A stretch of 37,555 nucleotides of DNA, taken from positions 1 to 37,555 of the forward strand of contig JAKAFU010000017.1 in NCBI GenBank assembly GCA_021825865.1, read 5' to 3'. The DNA comes from a bacterium. Its GTDB lineage: Bacteria; SZUA-79; Acidulodesulfobacterales; Acidulodesulfobacteraceae. Made by a program: the position numbers and the translations under genes. Below the pieces are notes generated by a model. That model saw only the letters and a list, made by a program, of their open reading frames with translations, was not told the DNA's origin and made no database searches. Numbering within the stretch: position 1 is the first letter of the stretch; each line of letters starts with the position of its first letter. Shown here piece by piece: positions 12,017-36,036 of this stretch.

Positions 12017-12249
12017 ATCAATCTAATATTTTTCCGACACAGCTTAAATTTATATTATATATTGCAATAATACATAATAATATTAGACAGTAATACGTTA
12101 ATAAAGATGCATTATTGACGCATTATATATCATATTTGTTATTTTATTTTATTAAACTTCTATTTTGCCGCATTTATTATATTTGTATCTATAAATATTT
12201 ATATCTATTATATTATATTTATATTTACATTCCGAAAATTTTAAATCTG

Positions 12250-15171
12250 CTAAAAAGATGTTCCAACCGTAAAATTAACCCCTCCAGACGGCCAGTAGGG
12301 TTCTCTTGTCAAAATAAAACCGTATGAAAAACTTATCGGTCCTATCGGGGATAAATACATTATACCTGCTCCGGCAGATTTATACAGGACTAAAGGTTTA
12401 ATATCAGACGGGGTTAAGAAAACATTTCCTCCGTCCTGAAAGCCGAATAAATCAATATTGTGATATATCGGGATATTTAGCTGCAGATTATAATTTTCCA
12501 TAACGTCTCCGCCGTCGGCATAGCCGTATTGATTTATTACGCCGATAGAATCCTGCGGAAATCCCCTGACAGTTGTTCTGCCTCCAAGAAAGAATCTTTC
12601 GTTAATAGGTACCTGAGCCGTCGGCGACAATGGTCTTATATACCCGAATCTTAAAGAATATTCTAAAACCGTGTTATAAACAAACGGTATGAATTGTTCC
12701 GTATGGACAAAAAGTTTGGCAAAATTTATCTGCGAATCTAATATGGCTGACGAATAAGAGAATCTTATGTCGGTAAGATTGCCGGACGTCGGATTAAATA
12801 CGTTATTTTTTGAATTATAAATAAGCGACGCTTCAAGCGAGCTTATCCTTGTGAAACCGGTATCGCGCGGAGTGATATCAGCGCCCGGATTTAACCCTGA
12901 CAGATTGTCGTATGACATATTATAAGAGAATAAACCCTTTAAATTATGATTAAATTTTCTTATTAACGAAAAAGACGTTCCTTCTTTATGCAATGTATAA
13001 TTTAGAGTAATGATGTCGGAATCTAACGCTTCGGCGTTAAATGCCAGACCTCTGTAATTATAAATAGCTGGGTCATAATAATCAAATAGAAGATTGGTAT
13101 AAATAGCGCTTTTTGAAAACCTCATAGACAGAGATTTTCCTGAACCGAACAGATTGTCGTCGTTAATCTGAAAAAATCCCCTGTATCTCGTGTATGTTCC
13201 GTAGCCTGCCCCGAAACTTAAACTTATCGGTTTAGAATCTTTTACCTGAATAATTATGTTCTTATATTTTTTAATATTTTCAGGATTTTCTAATTTTATG
13301 ACAACCGAATTAAATAATCCCGTTTTATATAAATCATTTTGGGTTTTAATTACGCTGCCCTGGTTATAAACCTGACCTTTTTTAAATAAAATAAGCGATT
13401 TTATATATCCTGTTTTTGTTATGGTATTTCCGGTAATAAAAATATTTTTTATAATAACCTTTCGGCTTTTCTGCGTTGAATAATACAGGCTGCATTTGCT
13501 TTTATTTTTTGAATAAACTATTCGCAATCTTGTTTTTGAAAAAATATAGCCTGCATTAGAAAGGTCCGTTTCAATTAAATTTTTTCCGTTATCTGCGTCT
13601 AATATTTTAAGCGGTTTATCTATCATTTTTTTAAAATAACTTTTAACCTCATTTTTTACCTTCGGCGGAAGACCGTCAATGCTGATTCTTTTTATATATG
13701 TTCGTATATTTTTTATTATATTAATATATATTATTACCGATTTTTTATTTCTGCAGAATTTCAGACTGTAATTTGCCTTAGCATTCAAATAGCCCTGATT
13801 ATTATAAAAATTTTCTATATTTTCAATATCTCTTTTTAATCTTCTTTCGCAGAAAAACTCAGGAGCAAATAGCGAAGATACATGCGTCCGCATTAAAGAA
13901 TCTATTTTTGAGATGCTGAAAGGCTTATTGCCCTTAATTATTATATTTTTTACGGCAACTTTATAACCTTTATTAACTTTATAAAATAGGTTAATTATTT
14001 TGCTATGTTTATTTTTTATTTCTTTAAAGGAAATTTTATTAAAAAAATAACCTTTTGTTTTAAAAAAATTCCGTAAAACTTTTTTAAATGCTAAAAAAGT
14101 CCCCTTATCAAAAATGAAAACATTATGAACGGTAAAAACATTATTTTTAATAAAATCCGGCTCATACGGTTTGATTCCTTTAAAATGAAATAATATTTTA
14201 TAGCCGGGATGGATTGAAAATAATAATATAGTTTTATATTTGCTTATATATTTTATTACTGTGGGCTCTATTATAGGGTTCAGATAATCTTTCTTAATAT
14301 AAATATGCCTTATACGCTTTCTGAAGTTTTTTATTAAAGACCTGTTTAGAGGTTTACCTGAAATGTCTTTAATAGCCGAAGAAAGAATTTTCGCAGGATA
14401 GAATGTTTTCCAGTGTATGAAGACTTTTGAAATTAGGACGGGTTTATTTAAAACTATATTTATATTTATTATATATTTTTTATTTTTTCTGAGCACATAA
14501 GAATTAAGTGAAACACGGGCAAAAGGATAACCTGAATTTTTTAATAATTGTTTTATAATTTTTATTGATTCTTTTTTATAAGAATACATATACTGCCCGT
14601 TAATTTTTAATTTAATTCCGTTTAATATTAATTTTTTACCGATACCTGAATTGTTTAGCCCTTTTATAGTTATTGTTTTTATATAAACTTCTGGAAATAA
14701 AATAAGTTTCAAATATATTTTTCTATTTTTATATCTATAAAAAACCATTACGTTTGAGAAGAGTTTAGATTTATAAAGAGCTTTAATTGTTTTTTCAATG
14801 TTATACATAGAAAAATATTGCCCTTTTTTTATATAAATATAATATTTTATTGATTTAAGTTTAATATTTGACGGCAGGCGGTATGATATCGACCCTATTT
14901 TTGTTTTTAAGGGCAAAGAATAAATTAAGGCAGAACCGGCACTATAAGCAGAAGCGGAAGTGTTGACGGAAATTAACCCTGCGGGTGCTCTGCCGGCGGC
15001 GGTTGCGGTATATATGTTTTTATTTTTAGCGTTGTTATTAGCGGAAAATCCGTAAGATGCCGGCAGACTAAAACATAAACTGCCCGATAATATTAGTAAC
15101 ATTACCGTAAGAACAAATAAAAAATTTAAAAATAATTCTATTTTCGGTATAATATTTATATATTTATTCAC
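12250..15171 (-). CDS. Omp85-family outer-membrane assembly protein (BamA/TamA type)
   Basis: An outer-membrane beta-barrel insertase or translocation partner. A signal sequence lies in the first 45 residues (VLTVMLLILSGSLCFS). From about 85 to 645 there are seven stretches of 75-85 residues, each with a POTRA-like pattern (for example IKNIFITGNTITKTG in the last). The barrel begins near 648 (LSFGAGYGTYTRYRG), contains the loop-6 motif TTVRGF near 861-866, and ends in Phe, as barrel signals do. At 973 residues it is longer than typical BamA or TamA. The start is GTG with no Shine-Dalgarno. It lies 318 bases downstream of tamB, so it may be the TamB partner; sequence does not exclude that it is the main BamA. 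Confidence 0.85.
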   Translation of the reverse strand: MNKYINIIPKIELFLNFLFVLTVMLLILSGSLCFSLPASYGFSANNNAKNKNIYTATAAGRAPAGLISVNTSASAYSAGSALIYSLPLKTKIGSISYRLPSNIKLKSIKYYIYIKKGQYFSMYNIEKTIKALYKSKLFSNVMVFYRYKNRKIYLKLILFPEVYIKTITIKGLNNSGIGKKLILNGIKLKINGQYMYSYKKESIKIIKQLLKNSGYPFARVSLNSYVLRKNKKYIININIVLNKPVLISKVFIHWKTFYPAKILSSAIKDISGKPLNRSLIKNFRKRIRHIYIKKDYLNPIIEPTVIKYISKYKTILLFSIHPGYKILFHFKGIKPYEPDFIKNNVFTVHNVFIFDKGTFLAFKKVLRNFFKTKGYFFNKISFKEIKNKHSKIINLFYKVNKGYKVAVKNIIIKGNKPFSISKIDSLMRTHVSSLFAPEFFCERRLKRDIENIENFYNNQGYLNAKANYSLKFCRNKKSVIIYINIIKNIRTYIKRISIDGLPPKVKNEVKSYFKKMIDKPLKILDADNGKNLIETDLSNAGYIFSKTRLRIVYSKNKSKCSLYYSTQKSRKVIIKNIFITGNTITKTGYIKSLILFKKGQVYNQGSVIKTQNDLYKTGLFNSVVIKLENPENIKKYKNIIIQVKDSKPISLSFGAGYGTYTRYRGFFQINDDNLFGSGKSLSMRFSKSAIYTNLLFDYYDPAIYNYRGLAFNAEALDSDIITLNYTLHKEGTSFSLIRKFNHNLKGLFSYNMSYDNLSGLNPGADITPRDTGFTRISSLEASLIYNSKNNVFNPTSGNLTDIRFSYSSAILDSQINFAKLFVHTEQFIPFVYNTVLEYSLRFGYIRPLSPTAQVPINERFFLGGRTTVRGFPQDSIGVINQYGYADGGDVMENYNLQLNIPIYHNIDLFGFQDGGNVFLTPSDIKPLVLYKSAGAGIMYLSPIGPISFSYGFILTREPYWPSGGVNFTVGTSF

Positions 15172-20831: not shown

Positions 20832-22589
20832 ATGAAGGCTAAATTAGGCGAATTATTAATAAAAAAAGGCATTACCGACGAACTGGCAATAAACAATGCT
20901 TTAAGCACACAAAAAAAATTAAACGATTTAGAAAATAAATATCTTAAATTAGGCGATATTTTAGTGAGAAGCGAAATAATCACACAACCTCAATTAGACG
21001 AAATATTAAACGAACAGAAAGAAAAACAAGATTCATTAGTAGGTTCGTCATCTAAATTACAATTTGAAAAAAATGACGGATTTATTGATTTTCTGTCTTC
21101 TGAATTTCAAGAGTTAGACTCTGATAAAAATATTCTGAAAACTATAGACCAAGATTTGATACGGCTTATTCCCGTCTCCATTGCGCTTAATTACGACATT
21201 GTTCCGTATAAAAAAGAAAATAATAAATTATATGTTTTTACTGCAAACCTTTTAGACAACGCGGCTGAAGATGATTTAAAATTTTATGTGGGATGCCCCA
21301 TTGAGCAGAAAATTATCTCTAAATCAGAAATTAATCAGCTAGTAGGCAAATATTATAATGCGGGAACTATTTTAAACGAAAGCGGAATTAATAAAAATGA
21401 ACCGGAAAGCAAAACAGAACTAACAGACATCACAATTCCCGACAGCAATAAAATAATACAGTTCGTAAACAGGATTGTATCTGATGCAATTAAAATAAAC
21501 GCTTCCGATATCCATATAGAATGCTATGAAAAAGAATTGCTGATAAGATATCGGCTTGACGGCAAACTTATAGAAGCGTCATCGGCTTCATCGGACCTTA
21601 AAAATGCTATAATATCAAGAATAAAAATAATGGCAAATCTTGATATATCCGAACAGAGGCTGCCTCAGGACGGTCATTTAAAGGTAAATTATAAAGGCAG
21701 CTATATTGATTTAAGAGTTTCTACTCTCCCGTCGCTTTACGGCGAAAAAACCGTACTGAGAATATTAGACAAAGGCGCAATTGAACTTAATATCTCAAAA
21801 TTAGGATTTTCAGAAAATAATATAAAAATGCTTAAAAATGCAATACATAAACCTTACGGCATAACGTTGGTTACCGGACCTACAGGTTCCGGCAAAACTA
21901 CTACTCTATACAGCGCTCTTAACGATCTCGACAGAAAGTCTCTGAATATAACAACTGTCGAAGACCCTATAGAATATAATATGGATAGGATAACGCAGGT
22001 TAACGTCAGAGAAAAAATAAATTTCACTTTTGCGGAGGTTCTTCGCGCTCTATTAAGGCAGGACCCTGATATTATTATGGTTGGTGAAATAAGAGATAAA
22101 GAAACGGCTGAAATTTCTATAAAAGCGGCGTTGACCGGTCACATGGTGCTTTCAACAATCCATACGAACAACGCAATATTAACTATTTCAAGACTGATAA
22201 ACATGGGTATAGATCCGTATCTTATAGCTTCAAGCCTAAATCTTGTAATAGCCCAAAGATTAGTGAGAAAGCTGTGTCCCGTATGTAAAGAAATCGATTC
22301 CGCTTACCCTCTTAAAAATAAAGATATTAGAGTATATAAGAAAAAAGGATGTCCCGAATGCATGCATACCGGATTTAAAGGCAGAGCCGCAATTTACGAG
22401 ATGCTTGAAGTCGATGAAAATATAAGCAAGTTAATATATCAAAATGCCGACGAATCTAAAATAACTGAATACGCCCATGAAAACGGCATGCTTTTTTTAA
22501 GAGATTCTGCTATTGAAAAATTAGAAGCCGGCATTACTTCCTATGACGAAATATCGGAATATTTGTCGGAAGAAGAAAAAAAGTCATAA
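20832..22589 (+). CDS. pilB: Second PilB/GspE-type assembly ATPase
   Basis: A paralogue of the ATPase at 594. It has an MshEN-like N-terminal domain (KLGELLIKKGITDELAINNAL, then LGDILVRSEIITQPQLDEIL), an Asp box ASDIHIECYEKELLIRYRLDG, Walker A GPTGSGKT at 349-356, Walker B DPDIIMVGE at 411-419, and a His box with TGHMVLSTIHT. The zinc cysteines are C482, C485, C507 and C510. All catalytic motifs are intact. No PilC-type gene is beside it; the only one in the window is at 2519. It may serve a second pilus or secretion machine, or be an alternative motor. The retraction ATPase PilT lacks this N-terminal domain and is unlikely. No Shine-Dalgarno is visible. Confidence 0.92.
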   Translation: MKAKLGELLIKKGITDELAINNALSTQKKLNDLENKYLKLGDILVRSEIITQPQLDEILNEQKEKQDSLVGSSSKLQFEKNDGFIDFLSSEFQELDSDKNILKTIDQDLIRLIPVSIALNYDIVPYKKENNKLYVFTANLLDNAAEDDLKFYVGCPIEQKIISKSEINQLVGKYYNAGTILNESGINKNEPESKTELTDITIPDSNKIIQFVNRIVSDAIKINASDIHIECYEKELLIRYRLDGKLIEASSASSDLKNAIISRIKIMANLDISEQRLPQDGHLKVNYKGSYIDLRVSTLPSLYGEKTVLRILDKGAIELNISKLGFSENNIKMLKNAIHKPYGITLVTGPTGSGKTTTLYSALNDLDRKSLNITTVEDPIEYNMDRITQVNVREKINFTFAEVLRALLRQDPDIIMVGEIRDKETAEISIKAALTGHMVLSTIHTNNAILTISRLINMGIDPYLIASSLNLVIAQRLVRKLCPVCKEIDSAYPLKNKDIRVYKKKGCPECMHTGFKGRAAIYEMLEVDENISKLIYQNADESKITEYAHENGMLFLRDSAIEKLEAGITSYDEISEYLSEEEKKS

Positions 22590-23323: not shown

Positions 23324-23441
23324 TTATTTTTACTATTTCTATTTAATTAAACTGTTTTATTTAAATTTATTTAAACTATTTTAATTATAATTAATTTATT
23401 ATTTATTTAATTCATTAATATTTACGGTGATAAATATTATT

Positions 23442-24080
23442 ATGTTTAATGATAGAAAAGATGCAGGGAATAAGTTAGCGACAGCTCTTAAAGAATATAA
23501 AGACAAAAATGTTTTAATTCTTGCTATACCAAAAGGAGGTGTAGAAGTTGCATTAGAAGTCGCAAAATATCTTAATGCCGATTTTTCATTGGCTATTATA
23601 AGAAAATTTCCTTTTCCTGATGAACCAGAAGGCGGTTTCGGAGCAATTGCAGAAGACGGAAGTATATATATAAATCGTGAAACATCGCGATATTTAGATA
23701 ACGAAACAATCAAAAAAATAGTAAATGAACAGAAAAATGAAATTAAAAGAAGAATAAGCGTTCTTAGAAATGGAAAACCTCTGCCTGAGCTTAAAAATAG
23801 AACAGTGATTTTGATTGATGACGGAATTGCGGCAGGTTCTTCTATGCGGGCGGCAATTATGCTCCTTAGAAATAATGAAGTGAAAAAAATAGTCGTGGCT
23901 TCCCCTGTTGCAGGCAAGGAAGTCGTTCTCAAGCTAAAAAAATTGGCAGATAAAATTGTAATACTTGAAATGCCGCAATTCTTCAGAGCTGTTGCCCAAG
24001 TTTATCGAAATTGGTACGATGTTTCCGACAAGGAAGTTTTAGAATTGATTAAAAGATTTACCGATAAAAAAAACAATTAA
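23442..24080 (+). CDS. Phosphoribosyltransferase (COG1926-like), copy A
   Basis: A PRTase-fold protein that probably uses or binds phosphoribosyl pyrophosphate. The PRPP loop is ILIDDGIAAGSS at about 123-134 from the start used here. The N-terminal AIPKGGVEVALEVAKYL is typical of this group. I start it at ATG 23442 because the second copy (24490-25149) begins the same way (MFKNRVDAG and MFNDRKDAG); an upstream GTG at 23427 would add five residues. It follows the hydrolase on the same strand. Substrate unknown. It differs from copy B at KFPFPDEPEGGFGAI, where B has KLGAPAQEELAIGAI, so the two may differ in specificity. Confidence 0.85.
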   Translation: MFNDRKDAGNKLATALKEYKDKNVLILAIPKGGVEVALEVAKYLNADFSLAIIRKFPFPDEPEGGFGAIAEDGSIYINRETSRYLDNETIKKIVNEQKNEIKRRISVLRNGKPLPELKNRTVILIDDGIAAGSSMRAAIMLLRNNEVKKIVVASPVAGKEVVLKLKKLADKIVILEMPQFFRAVAQVYRNWYDVSDKEVLELIKRFTDKKNN

Positions 24081-24228
24081 GATGTTTATAGGCTGTTAAA
24101 ACGGGATTGGACAACGAGATAAAATAATAGTATGTTCTTTGACATAGTCATAATAATAATTTTCGTTGTTAAATTAGTATTGCTATCTCAGCTAATAATA
24201 TAAGTTTCATTACAAATTATTATTGTTA

Positions 24229-24254
24229 TATTATTTTATAGCAATAAAATAATA
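24229..24254. repeat. 11-bp perfect hairpin, AT-rich
   Basis: TATTATTTTAT pairs with ATAAAATAATA over a four-base AGCA loop. With A/T-rich flanks it could work as a terminator in either direction between the two convergent genes. Confidence 0.5.
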
Positions 24255-24359
24255 AGAAGTTTTGCTGTTGAATTAGCTTACTATCTTAGCAGTATAAATT
24301 ATTATATAACCTTAAATCATCGTTAGAAACTATTAAAATTGTTTCAACATATAATAAGT

Positions 24360-24411
24360 ACCGGATTCTCGCGAAAGTGAGAACGGTTTAAATCCGTCGG
24401 TATTTAGACGG
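24360..24411 (+). ncRNA. Candidate structured RNA: two adjacent hairpins, first with GAAA loop
   Basis: Read on the plus strand, hairpin 1 (24360-24387) pairs ACCG with CGGT and TTCTCGC with GTGAGAA (one G-U pair), has a two-base bulge, and is closed by a GAAA tetraloop. Hairpin 2 (24394-24411) pairs CCGTC with GACGG over an eight-base loop. The spot is less AT-rich than its surroundings. GNRA loops favour the plus strand as the RNA. I could not match it to a known riboswitch, group II intron domain V or hammerhead ribozyme. Confidence 0.35.
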
Positions 24412-24489
24412 CTCATCCAGAAAATAAATTTATAACGGTGATTTAAGATATTATATGCGTTATCTAAAATGATGTTTACATAACGAAAT

Positions 24490-25149
24490 TTATGGCTTTA
24501 TAAAACATAAATTCTGATTTGCTTTATCTAAAAGGCTAATCACTTCTTCATCCGATGTTTGGCTAAAATCATCATAAAATGCTCCTACAGCGTAAAACTG
24601 CTCAGGAACCGACAAAACGGCGATTTCATCCACTTCCCTTTTTAATTCTGCTATTGTTTCAACAGGAGCAACAGGAACGGCAATAATTATTTTTTTTGGA
24701 TTTTCTGATTTTAAAGATTTTATTACTGCTTTAATAGATGCGCCCGTTGCGATACCGTCATCAACAACAATTGCAATTTTACCGGCAATATCTATTCTGT
24801 CTCTTCCGCTTCTATAAATTGTTTCACGTTTTCTGATTTCTGAAAGCTTAATTTTAATAATTTTATCAATATAATCTTTTGTAATATTAAGATGTCCGAT
24901 AATTTCATTATTAAGAAATATTTGAGGATTTTTTCCGTCAACTATTGCGCCTATTGCAAGTTCTTCCTGCGCCGGAGCTCCTAATTTTTTAACTAAAGCA
25001 ACATCTAAATATGCGCACAGCGCATATGCTATTTCAAAAGCGACGGGAACACCCCCTCTGGCAAGTCCGATGACAACGGCTTTATCATTTTTATATTCCA
25101 ACAATTTTTTTGCCAGCAATTTTCCGGCATCTACTCTATTTTTAAACAT
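24490..25149 (-). CDS. Phosphoribosyltransferase (COG1926-like), copy B
   Basis: A second PRTase-fold protein of the same family as copy A, convergent with it. The PRPP loop is VVDDGIATGAS at 128-138, closer to the usual family form than copy A. The N-terminal MFKNRVDAGKLLAKKL and GLARGGVPVAFEIA match the family. Length is 219 residues. The exact reaction is not known for this group. The ATG has no Shine-Dalgarno. It may be the housekeeping copy, with A a diverged partner of the hydrolase. Confidence 0.87.
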   Translation of the reverse strand: MFKNRVDAGKLLAKKLLEYKNDKAVVIGLARGGVPVAFEIAYALCAYLDVALVKKLGAPAQEELAIGAIVDGKNPQIFLNNEIIGHLNITKDYIDKIIKIKLSEIRKRETIYRSGRDRIDIAGKIAIVVDDGIATGASIKAVIKSLKSENPKKIIIAVPVAPVETIAELKREVDEIAVLSVPEQFYAVGAFYDDFSQTSDEEVISLLDKANQNLCFIKP

Positions 25150-25500
25150 TTAATTAATTAAATAACAATTATTATAATAATTTAATTTCAATTTAATTAC
25201 TAATTATACGACAATAAAATAATAATACTAAAGTAATCAATTTGGCACATCTGAATGTTTTTAGACACTAACTTCATCGCGTGTAAAATAAATATCATCT
25301 ATAAGCTGCGCCTTTGCTCAACACTCATATAACTGGAGTAAACTAAGACACTTTTTTGTTATAATTTATCTTGTTTTATAATATATCATAAATTACTAAT
25401 ATTATCTATGTATTTTTAGAAGGATCTATAAAATTATCATATTGAGCCAAATCTATTGTAGAATTATTAGCTATATGCTCTATAAACCATTCAATTTAGG
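25150..25500. other. 351-base gap with repeat copy A
   Basis: No gene seen. It contains copy A of the 85-bp direct repeat (25334-25418) and, before it, a short segment with an AGACACT motif that recurs at the repeat edge. Confidence 0.5.
25334..25418 (+). repeat. 85-bp direct repeat, copy A
   Basis: Begins TGGAGTAAACTAAGACAC and ends GTATTTTTA. It matches 33737-33821 in the same orientation with 7 mismatches in 85 bases by my hand alignment. The edges stop abruptly. It may be a mobile-element end or remnant. It has no coding potential. Confidence 0.8.
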
Positions 25501-28500
25501 CTAATTAGTATCCTCTCTGTTTTTGTTTAAGTCTTTGCCGAAAAACATATATACTGTCGGAACTATAAATATAGTTAAAAAAGTACCTATGCCCAGTCCG
25601 GCGGCTATAACCAACCCTATGTCGAACCTGCTGACTGCGCCTGCTCCAGTAGCAAGAAGAAGCGGCACGACGCCGAACACCATTGCAAAAGTAGTCATAA
25701 GTATCGGTCTCAACCTTATAGAGGCCGCCTGCTCTATCGCCGTGCGCTTATCAACGCCGTCTTTCTGTAAATCGTTTGCAAACTTTGTAATAAGAATACC
25801 GTGTTTACTTACGAGACCTATAAGCGTAACAAGTCCGACCTCCGTATAAATATTGATAGTTGCAAAACCTAAACTTAAAAATATTAACGCTCCTGTTATA
25901 GACATAGGAACGCTTATTAATATAATAACAGGGTCGATAAAACTATCAAATAGAGCGGCAAGAACGAGATAAATTATAATCAGGGAAAAGAAAAACGTTA
26001 CTATCATGGCCGAACCTTGCTGAACGAACTGCCGCGACTGACCGGCAAAATTATATGAAAAACCTTTCGGGAAAATCTTTTTGGAAGCTTTTTCAAGGAA
26101 ACTCAATGCCTGTCCTATAGTTACTCCGGGTTTAGGTATAGCGGAAATGGTAACGGAATTGAGCTGATCAAACTGGTTTAGCGATTCCGGCACGGTAACG
26201 GTCTTAAAACTTACAAAGCTGGAAAGCGGGACCATATTGCCGTTTGAAGCGGTTACGTAATAATTTTTCAGTAAACTTTGGTCGAACCTGTACTTTTGAA
26301 TTACCTGCGGTATGACCTTATAGCTGTAGCCGTCCATTTCAAACCAGTTTACATAATTTTCGCTCAGCATAGTAGAAAGCGTATCTCCTATTGTCGCCAT
26401 ATTAATGCCCATACTTTGAGCTTTATTTTTATTTATAATAATTTTTATTTGAGGCTCATCATATTTCAAGTCTTTATCTATATACAAAAACAGTCCGCTC
26501 TGCATAGCTTTTTGCTCAAGCCGGAGAGCGACGCTCCTCATCTCAAGATAATTGTTTGTAGATGTAATAACGAACATAACGGGAAGACCCTGCGAACCAG
26601 GAAGGCTCGGAAGCGCAAATGCCGCAAGCTGTAAACCCGTTACAGAGTTTAATTTTTCCTGTACCATAGGGGTAAGCTGCATCTGGGTTAATTTTCTCTG
26701 ACTCCAAGGCTTAAGAATCATGCCGGATATTAATGTGTTGTTGCCTGAAGCTCCCAATGCCATAAAATACCTGTCCATTTGCGGAAAAGAATCGTAAATA
26801 CGTCCTATCTGCTTTGCGTAATGTTTTAAATTTTTATAAGTAGAGGTAGGCGATGCGGTGCCCTGCACGAAAACGACGCCCTGGTCTTCCGTAGGGGCAA
26901 GTTCGCTCTTCGTTGTAACAAACAAAAAATAGGCGGCGGTTAAAACGACTATTATAACTAGCGCCACCACCGGTTTATAATCAAGAACTCCGTGAAGTAT
27001 CTTTGCATATATATTTTTTATTTTTTCAAAAGTTACGTCAAGAAAATGAGTAAGCCCTTTTTTACCCATATCCGCTTTTAAAAATTTTGACGTCATCATA
27101 GGAGAAAGAGTTAAAGCTAAAATTCCGGAAATAAGCACCGCTCCCGCAAGAGTAAAAGCAAATTCGGTAAAAAGCGCTCCTGTAAGACCGCCCATAAAGC
27201 CAATCGGAAGAAAAACCGCCACTAATGTAATGGACATGGCTATGATTGGCACGCCTAGCTCTTTTGCGGCAATAATAGCCGCATCGAACGGTTTTTTACC
27301 CTCTTCTATATGTCTGCTGACGTTTTCAACTACTATAATAGCGTCGTCGACTACCAAGCCTATAGCAAGGACGAAAGCTAAAAGCGTCAGTAAATTAATT
27401 GAATAGTTAAGATAATACATTATAAACAGGTCGCCTATTATGGATAGAGGTATAGCTATTACCGGAATAAATACGCTTCTTGCCGAACCGAGAAATAAAA
27501 ATATAACTATTATAACTATTAAAAGTGTCTCTACTACCGTTTTAATAACCTCGTTAATAGAACTGCTTATAAAAATAGTTCTGTTAAACGCAACCCTGAG
27601 TTTCATATGCGCAGGCAGCTGTTTTCTTAACGAAGGTATCATGCCTGTAAGTTTTTTTACAACCGTCAGCGGGTTTGCCGTAGGATTAGTAAAAATACCC
27701 ACAACCACCGATCTTTTGCCGTTCATTATATTTCCCGCATCGTTGCTTACGGCTCCCATTTCTACGGTGCCTATATCTTTAACCCTTACCAAGGTGCCAT
27801 TGTCGTCTGCAACTACTAAATTTCTAAACTGTTTTACGCTAGTTAAAAGCGTATCGGCCGAAATATTAACCTGAACGTAATTTCCTTTTGTGTAACCGTT
27901 AGAAGCTATATAATTGTTGTTTGCAAGAGCGTTTGAAACGTCTATGGGCGTAACGTTAAATTCCGCCATTTTTTTAGGGTTAAGCCATATTCTCATGCCG
28001 AACTGCTTGTTTCCGTAAATCTGAACCTGTCCGACACCGCTTACCGCTTGAATTTTTGGCTGAACCGCCCTCGTTATATAATCCGTTATCTGAGAACTCG
28101 ATAGCGTATTTGAAGTAAAAGCCAGATATAAATAAGCAAGATTGGTCACGCTAGTTTTAGTAATAACCGGCAGTTGAGACTGCTTAGGCAGCTGATTTAA
28201 TACGGAATTGGTCTGTGAGAGCACCTCGGCAAGAGCCGCATTAGAACTAAAGTTCAACTTCATAAAAACCTGTATGGTGCTTACGCCTTCCGTGCTCGTC
28301 GAAGTCATATAATCTATACCTTCCGAAGAAGCTATAGCTCTTTCCAAAGGCATAGTAATAAAACCCTGCACTACCTGCGAGCTTGCTCCCGGATAAGCCG
28401 TTTGAACGGTTATAAGGGTATCTTTTACTTTAGGATACTCCCTTAACGTCAATTCGGAAAGAGATCTTACTCCAAGTATTAATATAACAAGACTTATGAC

Positions 28501-28572
28501 TATTGCAAGGACGGGACGCTGAATAAATATATCGGTAAAACTTTTCGTTTTTTGCGGCTTTATTTCGTTCAT
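25501..28572 (-). CDS. RND efflux pump, inner-membrane transporter (HAE1 type)
   Basis: Proton-driven exporter of the AcrB/MexB class, forming the inner-membrane part of a tripartite pump. The N-terminus FIQRPVLAIVISLVILILG and the segment YPGASSQVVQGFIT are typical. The proton-relay pair is in GLVVDDAIIVVENVSRH (about 408-409), and the matching Lys is in GLVSKHGILITKF (about 925). Length is 1023 residues with the usual repeated halves. It begins directly after the adaptor gene and is preceded by AAAGG eight bases before ATG. Substrates cannot be predicted; acid, metal or lipid stress exporters of this class exist. Its HAE1 features argue against a metal-ion CusA type. Confidence 0.94.
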   Translation of the reverse strand: MNEIKPQKTKSFTDIFIQRPVLAIVISLVILILGVRSLSELTLREYPKVKDTLITVQTAYPGASSQVVQGFITMPLERAIASSEGIDYMTSTSTEGVSTIQVFMKLNFSSNAALAEVLSQTNSVLNQLPKQSQLPVITKTSVTNLAYLYLAFTSNTLSSSQITDYITRAVQPKIQAVSGVGQVQIYGNKQFGMRIWLNPKKMAEFNVTPIDVSNALANNNYIASNGYTKGNYVQVNISADTLLTSVKQFRNLVVADDNGTLVRVKDIGTVEMGAVSNDAGNIMNGKRSVVVGIFTNPTANPLTVVKKLTGMIPSLRKQLPAHMKLRVAFNRTIFISSSINEVIKTVVETLLIVIIVIFLFLGSARSVFIPVIAIPLSIIGDLFIMYYLNYSINLLTLLAFVLAIGLVVDDAIIVVENVSRHIEEGKKPFDAAIIAAKELGVPIIAMSITLVAVFLPIGFMGGLTGALFTEFAFTLAGAVLISGILALTLSPMMTSKFLKADMGKKGLTHFLDVTFEKIKNIYAKILHGVLDYKPVVALVIIVVLTAAYFLFVTTKSELAPTEDQGVVFVQGTASPTSTYKNLKHYAKQIGRIYDSFPQMDRYFMALGASGNNTLISGMILKPWSQRKLTQMQLTPMVQEKLNSVTGLQLAAFALPSLPGSQGLPVMFVITSTNNYLEMRSVALRLEQKAMQSGLFLYIDKDLKYDEPQIKIIINKNKAQSMGINMATIGDTLSTMLSENYVNWFEMDGYSYKVIPQVIQKYRFDQSLLKNYYVTASNGNMVPLSSFVSFKTVTVPESLNQFDQLNSVTISAIPKPGVTIGQALSFLEKASKKIFPKGFSYNFAGQSRQFVQQGSAMIVTFFFSLIIIYLVLAALFDSFIDPVIILISVPMSITGALIFLSLGFATINIYTEVGLVTLIGLVSKHGILITKFANDLQKDGVDKRTAIEQAASIRLRPILMTTFAMVFGVVPLLLATGAGAVSRFDIGLVIAAGLGIGTFLTIFIVPTVYMFFGKDLNKNREDTN

Positions 28573-29709
28573 TTAATTACCTTTTATAGTTATAGTACTG
28601 CTTTTAATTTTATTTTTGCTTTTATTATCTGCGCCTTCGTTTTTTACAGCTACAGGTATGCCGTTTCTCAGTTTTACCTGTCCAGCCGTAACGACTTTTT
28701 CGCCGGCTTTTAAACCTTTTAGTATAACCACTGCCCCGTTTCTTTCTTCACCTGTTTTAACATAATCGGTTTTAACGATATTGACGCCGTTTTTCTTAAC
28801 AACGACGTAAACAAAATCGCCGTATGGGTTGTAAGTTACGGCGGTAGCCGGAACCGTCACTACATTACGTATTACAGGCAGGAAAACTCTTCCTGTAACA
28901 AACATGCCCGGCCTTAAATACATTCCTTTATTGTCAACTATGACCCTCGCCGTTATATTACGGGATACGGTATTGACGTCTATACTTATAGTTTTTATTT
29001 TGCCGTAAAAAATTTTATTGTAGGAATCCAACTTAATCTTAACCTTTTGATTTACTTTCAAGCTGTGCAAATCATTTTGCGGCATAGTAAAGTCTATATA
29101 TATCGGATTAATTGAATAAAGAGGTATTATATTTGCTCCCGGCTGTACGTATTGACCGAGATTTACGGAACTTGAATTCCTAATCCCCAGTATTCCGGAA
29201 AATGGCGCCCTTATCGTCATATCGGCTATAGTCACTTCCGCCTGTGATATCTGAGCTTCGTTCTGCCTTAATGTAGAAAGCATCGATACGTATGATGCTC
29301 TGGAAACTGCATTTTGAGCGTAGGCTTTTTTGTACTGTTCATAGTTAAATTTATCGGCTATAAACTGGGATTTGTATTGATTTAGCTGAGCAATCTGAAG
29401 AGAATCGTCAAGAGTCGCTAATGGCTGATTTTTATGAACAAATTCACCGGACTTAAAATATATGCCGTTAACCTGACCGGCAACCTGGGTCGTTACGTTG
29501 ACTGAATTTATAGCGGATACATTGCCTATAGTGTGTATATAGGGCTGCCAATTTCCTATTTTAGAAATCGCCACCGACACGGAAACAGGCGGAAATTTTC
29601 TGGTTTTCATAAGCTGCCCGTTTATGTAGCCTTTATACGCTTTGTATCCGAATATTCCGCCGAAAATAACTATCAAAACAAGCAAAACTATAACAAAACG
29701 TTTAATCAT
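28573..29709 (-). CDS. RND efflux periplasmic adaptor (membrane fusion protein)
   Basis: Connects the RND transporter to the outer-membrane channel. It has an N-terminal membrane anchor (VIVLLVLIVIFGGIFGY) and a lipoyl half-motif near 75-100 (GQVNGIYFKSGEFVHKNQPL). A short coiled-coil hairpin of about 110-160 follows, then the family block IRAPFSGILGIRNSSSVNLG with GQYVQPG, a beta-barrel, and a C-terminal membrane-proximal domain (VVTVPATAVTYNPYGDFVYV). Length is 378. AAAGG stands before the ATG. It is the first gene of a two-gene minus operon, divergent from the outer-membrane factor with 156 bases between. Confidence 0.93.
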   Translation of the reverse strand: MIKRFVIVLLVLIVIFGGIFGYKAYKGYINGQLMKTRKFPPVSVSVAISKIGNWQPYIHTIGNVSAINSVNVTTQVAGQVNGIYFKSGEFVHKNQPLATLDDSLQIAQLNQYKSQFIADKFNYEQYKKAYAQNAVSRASYVSMLSTLRQNEAQISQAEVTIADMTIRAPFSGILGIRNSSSVNLGQYVQPGANIIPLYSINPIYIDFTMPQNDLHSLKVNQKVKIKLDSYNKIFYGKIKTISIDVNTVSRNITARVIVDNKGMYLRPGMFVTGRVFLPVIRNVVTVPATAVTYNPYGDFVYVVVKKNGVNIVKTDYVKTGEERNGAVVILKGLKAGEKVVTAGQVKLRNGIPVAVKNEGADNKSKNKIKSSTITIKGN

Positions 29710-29753
29710 ATCAATACCTTTAAAATAAGATTATTAAATTATTAATTTTTTAA

Positions 29754-29783
29754 TTGACAATATGACTTTATAGTCAGTATAAT
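29754..29783 (+). promoter_or_regulatory. Sigma70 promoter of the outer-membrane factor gene
   Basis: Perfect TTGACA at 29754-29759 and perfect TATAAT at 29778-29783 with an 18-base spacer. It lies 82 bases before the start of the outer-membrane factor gene. This is the best promoter match in the window. Confidence 0.7.
29763..29776. promoter_or_regulatory. Inverted repeat in the promoter spacer (candidate operator)
   Basis: TGACT, TTAT, AGTCA form a perfect 5-bp inverted repeat within the spacer of the promoter above. A repressor bound here would block it. TetR- and MarR-type regulators of efflux pumps often act this way, but no regulator gene is in the window. Confidence 0.45.
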
Positions 29784-29865
29784 TAGAATATAAAAAATTT
29801 CAAATTGAGTCAATCAAAAAAATAACATAAAACTAAAATGAATTAAAATAAACTAAATAAAAATT

Positions 29866-31320
29866 ATGAAACTTAAAAAAACTGTATTCTTATTTTTTTT
29901 TACTGCTTTCGCGTCAATGTTTATTCTCAGCGGATGCAGTTTATTTACGCATCCAAAAAAAATTACCGTTAAAATCCCAAAAAGATTTAAATATGCATTA
30001 AAGAATGAAAATTTTAAAATAAAAAACGACTGGTGGAAAAATTTTAAAAGCAATAAGCTTGACGGTTTAGTATCAAAGGCAATAAAAAACAATTTAAATT
30101 ATCTAATAGCTATTAAAAATATTCAGGTTGCAAAAACATACGTTTCGCAGAACGAATCTAACCTGTTTCCAACCGTTAATTTCAGCTACGAAGCAACAAG
30201 AAATAAAATGCCCGGCTATGAAACTTCTGTATTTTCCGGCGGAGCTTCTTCCGGTTCCTCCTCGACTATTATTTATAATCTAAATCAGGCAGGCTTAAGC
30301 GCTTCATATGAATTAGACGTTTGGAACCAGTTAAATAACGCAGTTAAACAGGCAAAAGCTAACGTCTCGGTATCAAAGGAAGATGCGGACGTAGTAAAAC
30401 TTACCCTTATAAGCAACGTGGCGCAAGTTTATTTTCAGATACAATCTTTAAAAGAATCTATTATTAACTTAAAAAAACAATATAGAGCAGAAAAAAAAAT
30501 TTTAAAACTTTATGAAGTACAGTGTAAAGACGGTCTTACCAATGCGGAACCAATAGTAAATACAAAAACAAACCTTGAGATTTTAAAAACCGACCTAAAT
30601 GATTCTATAAAGCAAAAAGATATTACACAAAATACGCTTGCATATTATCTGGGAAAATTTCCGGAAAGATTTAAGCTGACAGTTAAATCTAATATAAAAA
30701 ACATTTTGAATTTTAAACGTAACGGTTATTCTAAGTTAGTACCGCCTGATATTCCATCTGAAATTTTAACTCAAAGGCCTGATGTTAAAGAAGCGGAATA
30801 TAACGCTCTTGCATATGCGTACGCTAAAAAAGAAAGCCTCGCCAATTTTTTTCCCGTATTTAACCTGACAGGAAGTTATGGATATGCAAGTCCAAGCTTA
30901 AACAACTTTGTAACCGACGCAAACAGCGTATGGAATTTTGGATTAGATATTCTTGCGCCGATATTTAATTATAAAACTAATATAAGCATATATAAAAGGT
31001 CAAAACTGCAGTATCAGCAGGCAATATTGAACTACAGAAATACCATAATAAACGCTTTCAGCGAAACCGACAGCGACCTTGCCGATTTTCAGAAAGATAT
31101 GCAAACATTGGAAAGTTACGAAAAAAATTATCGCTATGCCCTAAAACTTTTCAATATTTATAAAGTGCAGTATGAAACCGGAATTTCTTCTAAAATAACT
31201 TATCTTACCTATAAAGAAAATTTACTTAATGCCGAATATAACCTGATAAATCAAAATTTATCGGTAAAGGAAGACGTCATTAACGTTTATAACGCTCTAG
31301 GTATGGGATTAAAAGATTAA
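29866..31320 (+). CDS. Outer-membrane factor lipoprotein (TolC/NodT family)
   Basis: Outer-membrane channel of the tripartite pump. A lipoprotein signal ends at LSGC with C24 as the lipidated residue. The start of the mature protein has the typical WWKNFKSNKLDGLVSKAIKNN. The channel domain is a repeat: LFPTVNFSYEA and FFPVFNLTGSYGYASPSLNN mark the two halves, with long helices in between and at the end (ALKLFNIYKVQYETGISSKI). Length (484) is normal for OprM-type proteins. It is divergent from the adaptor and pump genes, so all three may respond to one signal. No Shine-Dalgarno is visible before the ATG. Confidence 0.92.
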   Translation: MKLKKTVFLFFFTAFASMFILSGCSLFTHPKKITVKIPKRFKYALKNENFKIKNDWWKNFKSNKLDGLVSKAIKNNLNYLIAIKNIQVAKTYVSQNESNLFPTVNFSYEATRNKMPGYETSVFSGGASSGSSSTIIYNLNQAGLSASYELDVWNQLNNAVKQAKANVSVSKEDADVVKLTLISNVAQVYFQIQSLKESIINLKKQYRAEKKILKLYEVQCKDGLTNAEPIVNTKTNLEILKTDLNDSIKQKDITQNTLAYYLGKFPERFKLTVKSNIKNILNFKRNGYSKLVPPDIPSEILTQRPDVKEAEYNALAYAYAKKESLANFFPVFNLTGSYGYASPSLNNFVTDANSVWNFGLDILAPIFNYKTNISIYKRSKLQYQQAILNYRNTIINAFSETDSDLADFQKDMQTLESYEKNYRYALKLFNIYKVQYETGISSKITYLTYKENLLNAEYNLINQNLSVKEDVINVYNALGMGLKD

Positions 31321-31489
31321 TACTTCGGTAAATTCCTTAAATTTTTTTCAAGTTCTATATAAAGCAAAAGTTCCATATTTTTTGGGGCGTTGTCGGCAAA
31401 ACTTTCGTACTTGCGTGCTATAAATATATAAGTTAGTTATATTATTATCTTACAGTTTTATTTTTAATTGAATTATTTATGATATCCAG

Positions 31490-31512
31490 AGAAAAAGACG
31501 GGATATTTCAAA
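31490..31512 (+). repeat. 23-base dispersed repeat, copy 1
   Basis: AGAAAAAGACG, one variable base, then GATATTTCAAA. Copy 2 is at 37288-37310, same orientation, differing at that single base. It sits in the 266-base gap after the outer-membrane factor, where I find no gene. Confidence 0.6.
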
Positions 31513-31586
31513 ATGAATAAGAATTTAAGTCCGTATAACGAATTCAATGTTATCTGTCTCCATTATTTCGTCAATAAGGTTTTCAT

Positions 31587-32048
31587 TTATTTAACGCTGC
31601 ATGCGCCGATTCTTTTTCCTGTAAGTTTGATGTCTGAATTAGCATTCATTGTCCTGCCTTGATATGTGTTGATAGTATTAATATGTCCATGCATATGCAT
31701 TGTTTTATCGTTGGGAAAATACTCAAAAATAAGTTCTTTTATCTCTGAACCGGTTTTAATAGAACATTCAAAGCTAGTAACTACCGTTTTACCATGAATA
31801 GTTACGACGGGTTTTGGACATTCAGCCGGCATATCGGGATTCTTCTGCAACAGCGGTTTAAATTTATTGCCGATGCAGGTTGAATAAGTAGAAGTCATAG
31901 GCGGCGCAGAGTATGCAAGTCCGGAAACAGTCGTCGTGATTTTTTGGGTATATTGCCATAATCCAGGCAAAAACAGCCTGCTTGCAAATGCGTTGGAAGT
32001 AAAAGCTAAGCTCATAAATATACTTATTAATACAAATATTTTCTTCAT
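31587..32048 (-). CDS. DUF3617-family periplasmic protein
   Basis: A secreted protein of a family of unknown function. The signal peptide is KIFVLISIFMSLAFTSNAFA, probably cleaved after residue 22. The mature start LPGLWQYTQKITT and the end LTGKRIGAC are hallmarks of DUF3617. Four Cys (C58, C77, C95, C150) could form two disulfide bonds. Length is 153. A GAGGG ribosome-binding site precedes the ATG. It is convergent with the outer-membrane factor gene. The function is not known, so no role in efflux is claimed. Confidence 0.8.
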   Translation of the reverse strand: MKKIFVLISIFMSLAFTSNAFASRLFLPGLWQYTQKITTTVSGLAYSAPPMTSTYSTCIGNKFKPLLQKNPDMPAECPKPVVTIHGKTVVTSFECSIKTGSEIKELIFEYFPNDKTMHMHGHINTINTYQGRTMNANSDIKLTGKRIGACSVK

Positions 32049-32310
32049 ATTTTTCCCTCAATTTTTATAAAATAATTATAAATACGGTTATCAGGCCTAT
32101 TTTAAATGTTTTTTTATTTTTTTATATAGTATAAATTAATTATAGAATTATATTAATTATATTACTTGCCAAATAGCAGCATTATCAGTTTAACCAAACA
32201 ATTTTATTCCATAATCCGTTCATTTTGAATTAAGCTATTATCTCAATAAATATTTAAAAAAACAATCTAAAAATTATGCGGTTATATTGGCGATAAAATA
32301 GAAGGATTTT

Positions 32311-33495
32311 TTAATATATCGGGCGATATTTCTTAGCTTCATTAACGGCAATTTTTATCTGTTTTGCGTTCATGCAGCGTTTAAGCAAATCATTCAAAGC
32401 CCTATTAAGCAGGCAATATTTTTTACTGAATACAAAACCGTAAGAGCGTGCAATAATAAACCATTTAAGGGATTTAATGTAATTTTTCATTACAGCGTTT
32501 CCTTTATAATAAGCATACCCTAACATTGCCTGTGCAGATGAATCTCCCTGATTTGCAGAAAACTTAAACCAATGTACAGCCGATTTATAGTTTCTTCTTA
32601 CGCCTTTTCCATAATAATACATTCTGCCTAAATTGTATTCCGCTGTATAATTACCTTGACGCGCGGCTAAATTAAACCAGAATAACGCGATTCTGTAATT
32701 TTTCTTAACGCCGTGTCCTGCAAAAAAACAGAGTCCCAAATTATTTTGTGCGCATGCGTTATTTTGTATAGCAGGCAGATTATACCATTGAACTGCTTTT
32801 TTATATGCATCCCGCATATAGCTCTGTTCATAAGCTGTATTTATTTCAGTCTTGACAATTTTACTATATTCCTGATTGATTGCATATCTGTACCAGTAAT
32901 GTTTCCGCATCCATTTTTCAGGTATTAATTCTTTATTGTAATACATATGACCAAGCATAAATTCAGCATATTTTCCGTAAATATAGTAATGATTTGCTAC
33001 TTTTTTTAACCAGTATGCGGCTTGCTTAAATTTTTTTTTAATCCCGTAGCCGTAATAATATTGAAAACCGAGATTATATTCGCCTCCAATATATTTCTGC
33101 TCAGCGGATAATTTCCACCAGTAAAGAGCTTTTTTATAATTTTTAGGCGTTCCCAATCCGTAAAAATAATCGTTGCCTAAGTCCAGTTGTGATACGGCGT
33201 CTCCCTGTTTTGCGGCTAATTTAAACCAGTAGTTTGCTTTTAGGTAGTTTAACGGTACGCCGTAACCCTTAAAGTACATAAAGCCGAGTTTTCTCTGAGC
33301 CGCAGGATTGCCTTTTAAGGCAAATACTTTAAGAATCGAGAAAGCTTTTTTATAATTATGCTTTGCCCAGTATGAATTTACTTTATTTATCATAACGCCG
33401 TATGGTTTCATAGCGTAAGAAGTTTCGGAGCGGAACAGAGTGAGCACGAAAAACATTGAAAATAATAAGAATAATAATATTTTAATTTTATACAT
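32311..33495 (-). CDS. Sel1-repeat protein, secreted
   Basis: A periplasmic or surface scaffold of Sel1-like (TPR-related) repeats. A signal peptide covers about the first 29 residues (ILLFLLFSMFFVLTLF). Seven or so repeats of about 36 residues follow; clear ones contain KLGFMYFKGYGVPLNY, DLGNDYFYGLGTPKNY, NLGFQYYYGYGIKKKF, NLGLCFFAGHGVKKNY, NLGRMYYYGKGVRRNY and MLGYAYYKGNAVMKNY. An irregular stretch lies between the third and the later repeats (about 175-240). GGAG stands eight bases before the ATG. Such proteins bind other proteins; the partner is unknown. Confidence 0.9.
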   Translation of the reverse strand: MYKIKILLFLLFSMFFVLTLFRSETSYAMKPYGVMINKVNSYWAKHNYKKAFSILKVFALKGNPAAQRKLGFMYFKGYGVPLNYLKANYWFKLAAKQGDAVSQLDLGNDYFYGLGTPKNYKKALYWWKLSAEQKYIGGEYNLGFQYYYGYGIKKKFKQAAYWLKKVANHYYIYGKYAEFMLGHMYYNKELIPEKWMRKHYWYRYAINQEYSKIVKTEINTAYEQSYMRDAYKKAVQWYNLPAIQNNACAQNNLGLCFFAGHGVKKNYRIALFWFNLAARQGNYTAEYNLGRMYYYGKGVRRNYKSAVHWFKFSANQGDSSAQAMLGYAYYKGNAVMKNYIKSLKWFIIARSYGFVFSKKYCLLNRALNDLLKRCMNAKQIKIAVNEAKKYRPIY

Positions 33496-33569
33496 TTATA
33501 GCTCCAAGAAATTTTTATTATGGAAAATTTTCGGCTGTATTTTAGAACATACAAAATTAATACTATGGT

Positions 33570-33610
33570 GAATGAAAATAAAAATAAAAAAATAAAAACC
33601 GGACGGTTTT
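33570..33610 (-). terminator. Candidate intrinsic terminator or attenuator
   Basis: On the minus strand AAAACC pairs with GGTTTT over four bases, followed by a long T-rich stretch broken by single A bases. It lies 75-115 bases upstream of the Sel1-repeat gene on the same strand, so it would end transcripts from the right or attenuate that gene's leader. Confidence 0.4.
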
Positions 33611-33736
33611 CATATTTATGGAAGTAAAATTTTTACATTACTGTCTTGATTTATTGGTTCATTATACATATGGTTAATAAACAGCATTACGGCTGTAAAT
33701 CACCCCGCAGAATATAATTATATTATGCAACAAATA

Positions 33737-33821
33737 TGGGGTAAACTAAGGCACCTTTTGGTTATAATTTATCTTGTTTTATAATATATTATAAATTACT
33801 AATATTATCAATATATTTTTA
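33737..33821 (+). repeat. 85-bp direct repeat, copy B
   Basis: Begins TGGGGTAAACTAAGGCACC and ends ATATTTTTA. Same orientation as copy A at 25334-25418, 7 differences in 85 by hand alignment. Together the two copies flank the efflux, DUF3617 and Sel1 genes. Confidence 0.8.
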
Positions 33822-33937
33822 TATTATATAAATATTATCAGCTTTAAAAAATTGAGCTCAGGCGCAAAAAAAGTAAGGATATAAATTTCTAAGTCAGGAT
33901 TTGGGACGGCAGGCCGCGGGCCAAAAACATTTTTGTA

Positions 33938-33946
33938 TGGTATAAT
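33938..33946 (+). promoter_or_regulatory. Extended -10 promoter of the flavin oxidoreductase gene
   Basis: TGGTATAAT, a full extended -10 element, 53 bases before the ATG at 34000. No good -35 is seen at the expected distance, where the sequence is locally GC-rich; extended -10 promoters can do without one. Confidence 0.5.
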
Positions 33947-33999
33947 TTAAAATATTATTATATTCCATTTCATGCTAACGGGGGCGGAAGAAAATTTAT

Positions 34000-35433
34000 A
34001 TGGATATTCAAACGGTTAAGACTGTAACGGCCGACGTGCTTATCATAGGCGGAGGGCCGGCTGGAATGATGACCGGAATAACCGCCGTACAGTTCTTGCC
34101 CGATAAAAAAGTTCTTGTGGTTAGAAGGGAATTCGACGCCGTAATTCCTTGCGGAATTCCGTATATTTTCGGCACGCTTCATGGAACCGACGAAGACATG
34201 GCCGGAAGACTCCCTTTAGTTGCAGCCGGCGGCGAACTGTTAATCGGGAATATTATAGATATAAACGTAAAAAGCCGCACGGCTTATATGGAAACAATAC
34301 CGTCAGACAGTCCTTTTGAAAACAAACCGAATAAACTAGAAAATTCAAAAGAAGTTACCGAAATTAAATTCGATAGGCTCGTTTTGGCGATGGGAGGAGA
34401 AAATTTTATTCCAAATATAAAAGGCACCGGGCTTAATGGCGTTTTTACTATACAAAAAGATTATAACTATTTGGAAAGATTATTTAACGACCTTATCCCT
34501 AAAGTTAAAAGGCTTGCGATTATAGGCGGCGGATTTATAGGTGTGGAGTTTGCCGACGAAATTAGGAAATTAGGCATAGAAGTGCATATAATAGAAACGC
34601 TTCCTAATCTTCTTCAGGTTTCGTTCGATAAAAACGTGTGCGTCAGAATCGAAGAAATATTGAAATCAAGGGAAGTTAAAATACACACAAACTCTCAGGT
34701 TCAAGAAATTTTGTCCGACGTATCCGGCAAAAACGTAAAAGGACTCGCAATAAAAGATAAAGACGATATTGAAGTCGATGCCGTATTGATTGCCATAGGA
34801 GTAAGGCCTAACGTGAAACTTGCCGAAAAAATGGGATTAACACTTTCAAGGTCGGGGGGAGTCTGGGTCGATGCATTTCAGAGAACTCGTGAAGATAATA
34901 AAATATTTGCGGTGGGAGACTGTGCTCATAAGCAGGATTTTTTTACCAGAAAGGCAAATCATTCCATGATTGCTTCCGCGGCGGCGGCGGAAGGCAGGAT
35001 AGCGGGAATGAACTTGTTTAATCTGCGCTTATCCCGATATAATGCGGGGTCGGTATCGGTTTACTCAAGCGAAATCGACGGACTTGCTTTCGGTGTGGCA
35101 GGCTTGACGGAAGCTCAGGCCGTTGCCGAAGGGTTCAACATACTTATAGGAGAATCGAGACTTCCCGACCACCATCCGGCTTCGATGCCGGGTACCGTCG
35201 AAATATATTGCCGTTTAATATTTTCAAAAGATTCTTTGCAGCTGCTCGGAGGTCAAATTACGGGCGGTTCTACCACGGGAGAATTAGTCAATACGATAGG
35301 TCTCGCTATTCAGATGCATGCAACTGCTACGGACATAGCCACGATGCAATTCGGAAGCCAGCCGAGGCTGACTCCCTCCCTTCATCCTATGGTGGCGGCA
35401 ACCGGAGACGCTTTAAAGAACGATATAGTTTAA
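34000..35433 (+). CDS. FAD/NAD(P)-dependent oxidoreductase (CoA-disulfide reductase/NADH oxidase family)
   Basis: A cytoplasmic flavoprotein with the pyridine nucleotide-disulfide oxidoreductase fold. FAD-binding GGGPAG is at 17-22. A single redox Cys, C51, is in VIPCGIPYIFG, matching the active Cys of CoA-disulfide reductases, NADH oxidases and polysulfide reductases rather than a CxxxxC pair. NAD(P) binding is at about 172-187 (LAIIGGGFIGVEFADE), and the second FAD motif is IFAVGDCAH near 305. A C-terminal dimer domain ends HPMVAATGDALK. Length 477. Codons appear more GC-rich than in neighbours, suggesting transfer or stronger expression. It may reduce disulfides, persulfides or oxygen; sequence does not decide. 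Confidence 0.85.
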   Translation: MDIQTVKTVTADVLIIGGGPAGMMTGITAVQFLPDKKVLVVRREFDAVIPCGIPYIFGTLHGTDEDMAGRLPLVAAGGELLIGNIIDINVKSRTAYMETIPSDSPFENKPNKLENSKEVTEIKFDRLVLAMGGENFIPNIKGTGLNGVFTIQKDYNYLERLFNDLIPKVKRLAIIGGGFIGVEFADEIRKLGIEVHIIETLPNLLQVSFDKNVCVRIEEILKSREVKIHTNSQVQEILSDVSGKNVKGLAIKDKDDIEVDAVLIAIGVRPNVKLAEKMGLTLSRSGGVWVDAFQRTREDNKIFAVGDCAHKQDFFTRKANHSMIASAAAAEGRIAGMNLFNLRLSRYNAGSVSVYSSEIDGLAFGVAGLTEAQAVAEGFNILIGESRLPDHHPASMPGTVEIYCRLIFSKDSLQLLGGQITGGSTTGELVNTIGLAIQMHATATDIATMQFGSQPRLTPSLHPMVAATGDALKNDIV

Positions 35434-35632
35434 TTTTGATTTGAGTATCTCGCGATTGTCTTCTATTTAATTCGCAGGTTTCATTTGGATATTACCCAAA
35501 TCTCGATTTAGAATTGTATAATATACTAAACAATAATAAGGGTCAACTGCGAGATAAGTGTCTAATTAAAAACGTAATCGCTGTCCAGTAATTTCCGTAA
35601 AGAGTGTTCAGTAAGAACGGAATATACACCTT

Positions 35633-36036
35633 ATGGCAAAAAGTTATATAATTTCCAAATTCGGAGATAAATATTTTGAAAATTGCATCTATAAAAATAA
35701 GGACGGTTCCAAAGACGCTCACGAAGCAATTAGACCGGCAGACGTCAATAAATCTATTAACGGCTTATCCGAAGACGAGGAACAAAGTTTAGAATTTAAT
35801 CTTAAACTGTTTTATAGCGTCTTTTATAGCGTCTCAGATGTCTTCCGCCATGTACGACCAGACGGTTATTACGGTTAAAGTCGGCTGCGTATATATAGAG
35901 GGAGCCCATGCAAGCGTAATGAAATTTAAAGGATACAAACCCGTTTGCAACGACAAAGAAAAAGACGACAAAAACCATATTGGCGGGTATCGAAAAAGGG
36001 GACGTCAACGTGTTAAGCGTGAACGTTAAGGATTAA
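35633..36036 (+). pseudogene. topA: DNA topoisomerase I remnant, split over three frames
   Basis: A decayed internal piece of type IA topoisomerase. Frame 1 (35633 to about 35815) gives AKSYIISKFGDKY and the signature DAHEAIRPADVN. Frame 2 (about 35823-35970) continues with FIASQMSSAMYDQT and SVMKFKGYKPV. Frame 3 (about 35974-36036) gives ILAGIEKGDVNVLSVNVKD and a stop. These follow each other in the order found in intact TopA, so at least two frameshifts occurred. A 12-base tandem duplication (35810-35833) lies at the first shift. The N-terminal toprim domain, active-site Tyr region and C-terminal domains are missing. A weak trace of the RTDS motif (VRTEYT) may lie just upstream. The end overlaps the next gene by 11 bases. 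Confidence 0.85.

Follow-up and report, generated by a model that had tools for sequence, protein, structure and literature searches.

We consider it probable, taking the three parts together, that the two 85-bp direct repeats bracketing the efflux genes of the window (the whole 37,555-bp stretch of DNA analysed here) are remnants of an IS3-family end, that the bracketed DNA is a mosaic, and that a core kept in both repeats may be an outward promoter serving the adjacent minus-strand genes.

The two direct repeats described in the initial annotation were recovered. Copy 1 (25334-25418, plus strand) and copy 2 (33737-33821, plus strand) have the same orientation, are identical at 78 of 85 positions (92%, 7 mismatches) and lie 8403 bp apart; their longest exact common run is 29 bp, and a gapped likeness extends about 20 bases beyond 25418 and 33821. 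In a whole-genome search with the repeat, the second copy was found with an E-value of 1.5e-29, far above chance. The genome searched is a 1.9 Mb draft in 74 contigs (90.5% complete), and the two window copies were its only strong matches among the best 40 of 55 and the best 40 of 48 candidates, and again in a separate search in which all 14 candidates were scored; the remaining matches among the candidates scored were partial (38-49 bases). Draft assemblies lose repeats. Other direct repeats of the window, D6 and D8, are accounted for by a pair of genes for type II/IV secretion ATPases (T2SSE with MshEN) at 594-2354 and 20832-22589.

Both copies carry AGTAATTTAT in their core, which is absent from the other 23 aligned rows. 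The best of the 23 copies elsewhere agreed with copy 1 at 75 of 85 positions (L025) and with copy 2 at 74 of 85 (L024), and the mutual likeness of the window copies thus exceeds their likeness to outside copies only slightly. The naive chance that two randomly placed copies fall within 8.4 kb is approximately 0.9%, or approximately 0.4% with equal orientation, and we counted the closeness of the sole two strong copies against the explanation by IS remnants. A local duplication or recombination step may have taken place while this part of the genome was rearranged.

The repeat family was matched in all seven genomes of the genus, although the piece matched in G004 was only 43 bases long in one search and 65 in another, and a search with the family consensus matched the repeat in 10 of 30 family genomes. 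The initial annotation had named many copies at unrelated gene borders as a sign against its block reading; such a spread was borne out across the genus and the family, but not within the source genome, where two strong copies and a few partial ones were found. In the aligned copies, the outer end of the repeat is sharply defined (TGGTCTAACCCCCATATTGTTGGAGTAAATTAAGACAC), and approximately 65 A+T-rich bases come after it. An inverted partner of this end could be assigned in six loci, four of which hold short elements of 115-194 bp (L024, L046, L049 and L057) and two of which hold longer ones (L044, 1509 bp; L054, 1257 bp); L060 and L029, in which both ends are present but cut or decayed, were left out of these six. 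The paired ends of the six elements provide the terminal inverted repeats of an IS3-family element.

The element at 127-1635 of L044 contains open orfA and orfB genes between its inverted ends. Its OrfB scored 165.9 bits against the IS3 transposase model NF033516 (cut-off 160) and contains rve, rve_3 and HTH_21 domains, and orfA (1256-1570, minus strand; HTH_Tnp_1) lies upstream of orfB on the same strand. L054 contains short ORFs only, which by eye resemble pieces of the L044 orfB, and L047, judged by its resemblance to L044, contains orfA and a truncated orfB. At an E-value of 1e-20, OrfB was matched in one of the seven genus genomes (G006), with no match in the other six, the source draft included. 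The ends of the paired elements look by eye like the TG...CA type, which is the rule for IS3-family elements, with ATACA after the aligned right end in five of the six, shifted by a base in one of them. A short target duplication of 3-5 bp is expected for IS3-family elements; visual inspection of the sequence flanking the six paired elements, whose exact right border is uncertain, revealed none. In a hand count made without a control, 11 of 28 repeat rows (those of the 29 family-consensus rows with contig size available) were 700 bases or less from a contig end, and mobile repeats often sit near contig ends in draft assemblies. We also observed an IS200/IS605-type pair (Y1_Tnp and OrfB_IS605) at 3047-5061 of L029 (G002); ends of the IS3-type family flank it, a decayed left one on one side and a right one on the other.

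This spread through the family, together with a better preserved copy that has both inverted ends and transposase genes, leads us to read the 85-bp repeats as two decayed remnants of one IS3-family end, from an element once mobile in the genus and family. Two remnant mobile-element ends had been offered in the initial annotation as an alternative to a movable segment, and it is this alternative that the ends and the transposase in relatives uphold. Of the two ends of the element, the one downstream of orfB is the counterpart of the window repeat, and both window copies match this end well past the core, out to a TGG(A/G)GTAAACTAAG stretch. The outer tip of copy 1, from 25314, is faint (by our own count, 11 of 20 bases agree; 10 of the 39 positions at 25314-25352 are mismatched, nine of them within the first 20), and that of copy 2 is lost. 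No orfA or orfB remnants were found in the window (best E-value of 0.11). A possible decayed opposite end at 33955-33985 (plus strand) is uncertain, with 4 of 1000 shuffles scoring as well; after copy 1, no opposite end was found (616 of 1000 shuffles scored as well), and a candidate at 25487-25500 was rejected, its likeness not exceeding that of shuffles and its position overlapping the conserved 3' end of the pump gene. As membership of the IS3 family takes both ends and a transposase, the window copies are remnants and not members. Non-coding RNA was also rejected, there being no Rfam match at the gathering score in 24000-36000.

The genes reported between the repeats were all confirmed. 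The efflux trio consists of an RND pump (25501-28572, minus strand), a HlyD-type adaptor (28573-29709, minus strand) and an outer-membrane factor of the OEP channel type (29866-31320, plus strand), the latter two passing their NCBIfam cut-offs. The pump scored below the cut-offs of its best NCBIfam models (1155.9 vs 1250 and 1192.3 vs 1763), so its substrates are left unnamed. The segment at 25499-31488 showed 87-88% DNA identity to three loci, L005, L011 and L015, the pumps of which are 95.5-96.8% identical to the window pump at the protein level. The corresponding values within the genus were 83% (G003) and 79% (G006), and the other four genus genomes contained pump homologues of 30-31% only. 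The three loci share one common neighbourhood, in which seven flanking proteins compared were 94.7-98.7% identical. We placed them outside the genus because the best phosphoribosyltransferase matches in the genomes of L005, L011 and L015 were 37%, 58% and 57%, respectively, against 87-92% within the genus, although this comparison may partly pair paralogues, as copies of 92% and 59% are both present in G006. In the pump tree, the window joined L015 and then L005 and L011, with supports of 83/86 and 90/100 that are both under the program's star level and with a very distant outgroup.

In L015, the efflux genes are flanked by genes for a binding protein, two permeases, an ABC ATPase and PhoU, which is the make-up of a pst-phoU operon. 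A truncated C-terminal remnant of PhoU was found in the window at 31320-31489 (minus strand; 39 residues at 74%, E-value of 4e-14); 10 further PhoU residues lie in another frame and lack significance by themselves, but the DNA alignment extends to 31488. In the other lineage, the PhoU gene and the efflux genes are neighbours, and in the window the scrap adjoins the outer-membrane factor gene. DNA homology beyond the outer-membrane factor gene, to 31435-31488, was also present in L006, L007, L008, L009, L010 and L014, and in two members of the genus, G003 (L016 and L097) and G006 (L013 and L098), homology ended at 31307. The efflux genes thus look transferred across lineages, and the PhoU scrap and the stop of homology at 31488 may be read as the scar of this transfer. 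In L005, approximately 110 bases of the 3' end of the pump gene are duplicated right after the gene (12205-12319), with 86% identity to 25499-25609 of the window.

The remainder of the bracketed DNA has a different origin. The region at 31573-33619 (minus strand) matched contig 5 of G003 with DNA identities of 92% (31573-33520) and 88% (33514-33619), which identifies the DUF3617 gene (31587-32048) and the Sel1 gene (32311-33495), both on the minus strand, as native to the genus. On the left of the repeats, the phosphoribosyltransferase gene (24490-25149, minus strand) had best matches of 87-92% in six other genus genomes. Just outside copy 2, the product of the FAD/NAD oxidoreductase gene (34000-35433, plus strand) was approximately 76% identical to proteins of G002 and G003, with no match at an E-value of 1e-30 in the other four genus genomes, and the region of this gene was approximately 75% alike in DNA. 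The phosphoribosyltransferase gene has a paralogue at 23427-24080; the two lie side by side on opposite strands, are 36% identical and are not adjacent in the loci of relatives that were compared.

Homology ceases by 25202 in the phosphoribosyltransferase region and at 33619 in the Sel1 region; the foreign trio starts at 25499. Judged from these alignments, both repeat copies sit where genus synteny stops, and IS remnants at rearrangement points are common. The left repeat lies approximately 80 bp from the transferred piece, and the right repeat lies 2.2 kb past its end. At an E-value of 1e-3, the repeat had no match within 2 kb upstream of six phosphoribosyltransferase orthologues (467 bp covered in L101) or within 2 kb upstream of three Sel1 relatives (L104 being a fragment). 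The genus relatives showed differing gene orders at the loci compared. Contig 5 of G003 contains a hydrolase gene and PRT1 and, 2.5 kb on, the FAD, Sel1 and DUF3617 genes without the efflux trio; its gene order and orientation differ, for which reason it does not count as a clean empty site. Approximately 400 bp beyond DUF3617, this contig has a weak match to copy 2 (72 bases, 75%).

Since the 8.4 kb are a mosaic of a foreign trio and native DUF3617 and Sel1 genes, the repeats do not delimit a mobile block. The proposal that the segment between them was gained, excised or amplified was not supported, as the acquired part stops at 31488 and the DNA at 31573-33619 is native. A composite transposon around the efflux genes was likewise rejected, for there are like ends only, no transposase, and foreign cargo that stops at 31488. 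It is nevertheless conceivable that the repeats are footprints of the arrival or movement of a block, in which a circle or fragment bearing the IS underwent recombination with a resident copy, leaving direct repeats behind, and that homologous recombination could still delete or duplicate the 8.4 kb. The equal orientation of the copies, their 92% identity and 29-bp exact run, their standing as the only two strong copies found among the candidates scored in the draft genome, and the foreign trio between them all fit such an event. We regard it as unlikely, since the foreign part ends 2.2 kb short of the right copy and is followed by native genes, both ends are far decayed, and a single-copy empty site was not seen in the compared loci, where gene orders differ within the genus. 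Recombination between copies 1 and 2 is possible in principle; an excisable or amplifiable efflux block is not supported.

The best kept part of the IS3-type end is its core, which on the minus strand fits TTGAYAATATTAGTATTTTATGAYAWATTA, a pair resembling -35 and -10 elements 17 bases apart. The core of copy 1 (25408-25380, minus strand) reads TAGATA-17-TATATT and points at the phosphoribosyltransferase gene; that of copy 2 (33811-33783, minus strand) reads TTGATA-17-TATATT and points at the Sel1 gene. With up to three mismatches, the core occurred one to four times in each of the seven genus genomes, and a backward control gave 0. With up to four mismatches, 27 rows in the compared loci (2 of them duplicates) gave 25 distinct places, of which 21 were counted, as 4 had no downstream ORF in the compared DNA. 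The core was co-directional with the downstream gene at 19 of these 21 places and not at 2, a count made less independent by orthologous places, as compared with 57% of random intergenic points (1935/3420), or 49% within 500 bp. When orthologous places were counted once and the GGDEF group was left out, 12 of 14 were co-directional; p ranged from 0.005 to 0.02. Promoter scans gave no clear excess over shuffles (5 vs 2.5, 3 vs 2.9 and 1 vs 0.8), and the scan of the best preserved element missed the core, its -10 being weak.

The GGDEF group comprises L105, L106, L107 and L109 (G000, G002, G004 and G003, respectively), where a core with 2 mismatches and no visible IS ends precedes a GGDEF gene, the identity of which was tested by Pfam for L105; a further place of this type, L108, is cut by a contig end. 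These places would suit a promoter or operator motif native to the genus and captured by an IS, in which case the core would not be IS debris. We find this very improbable, as the window copies match the IS end far beyond the core and the proteins downstream of the core places look unrelated by eye. An IS-derived core is preferred, and its conservation and direction suggest, without proving, that an outward promoter of the IS was reused at both window copies, which is plausible. The retained core would now serve the phosphoribosyltransferase and Sel1 genes, and such reuse would explain both the same direction of the two copies and the retention of the core. More tentatively, and with somewhat less than even confidence, we propose that the genus received a complete outward promoter from an IS3-type element now close to extinction, and that this promoter was repeatedly domesticated before unrelated chromosomal genes; the promoter core would survive while the transposition end decays, and the window copies would be two such cases.

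We compared these features with known systems. L044 resembles IS3-family insertion sequences (copy-out paste-in) in its orfA and orfB with rve domains, its inverted ends and its length of approximately 1.5 kb, whereas the window copies are 85- to 105-bp remnants of one end without a transposase. The pump, adaptor and outer-membrane factor occur together as in tripartite RND multidrug efflux systems, although the outer-membrane factor gene of the window is divergently oriented. The two-ended 115-194 bp copies in relatives (four of the six paired) resemble the IS-derived miniature elements described in the review PMC9330008, whereas the window copies may be single ends with a putative promoter role. 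The same review reports outward promoters, complete ones, as confirmed in IS3-family elements, and the promoter-like core described here is similarly directed outward through the end.

The tempting reading of a repeat-bounded, amplifiable efflux island was removed as unsupported. In its place stand an efflux trio that appears to have passed between lineages, its scar still visible, and IS end remnants that, as far as sequence comparison can indicate, may serve resident genes of this uncultivated group as promoters.
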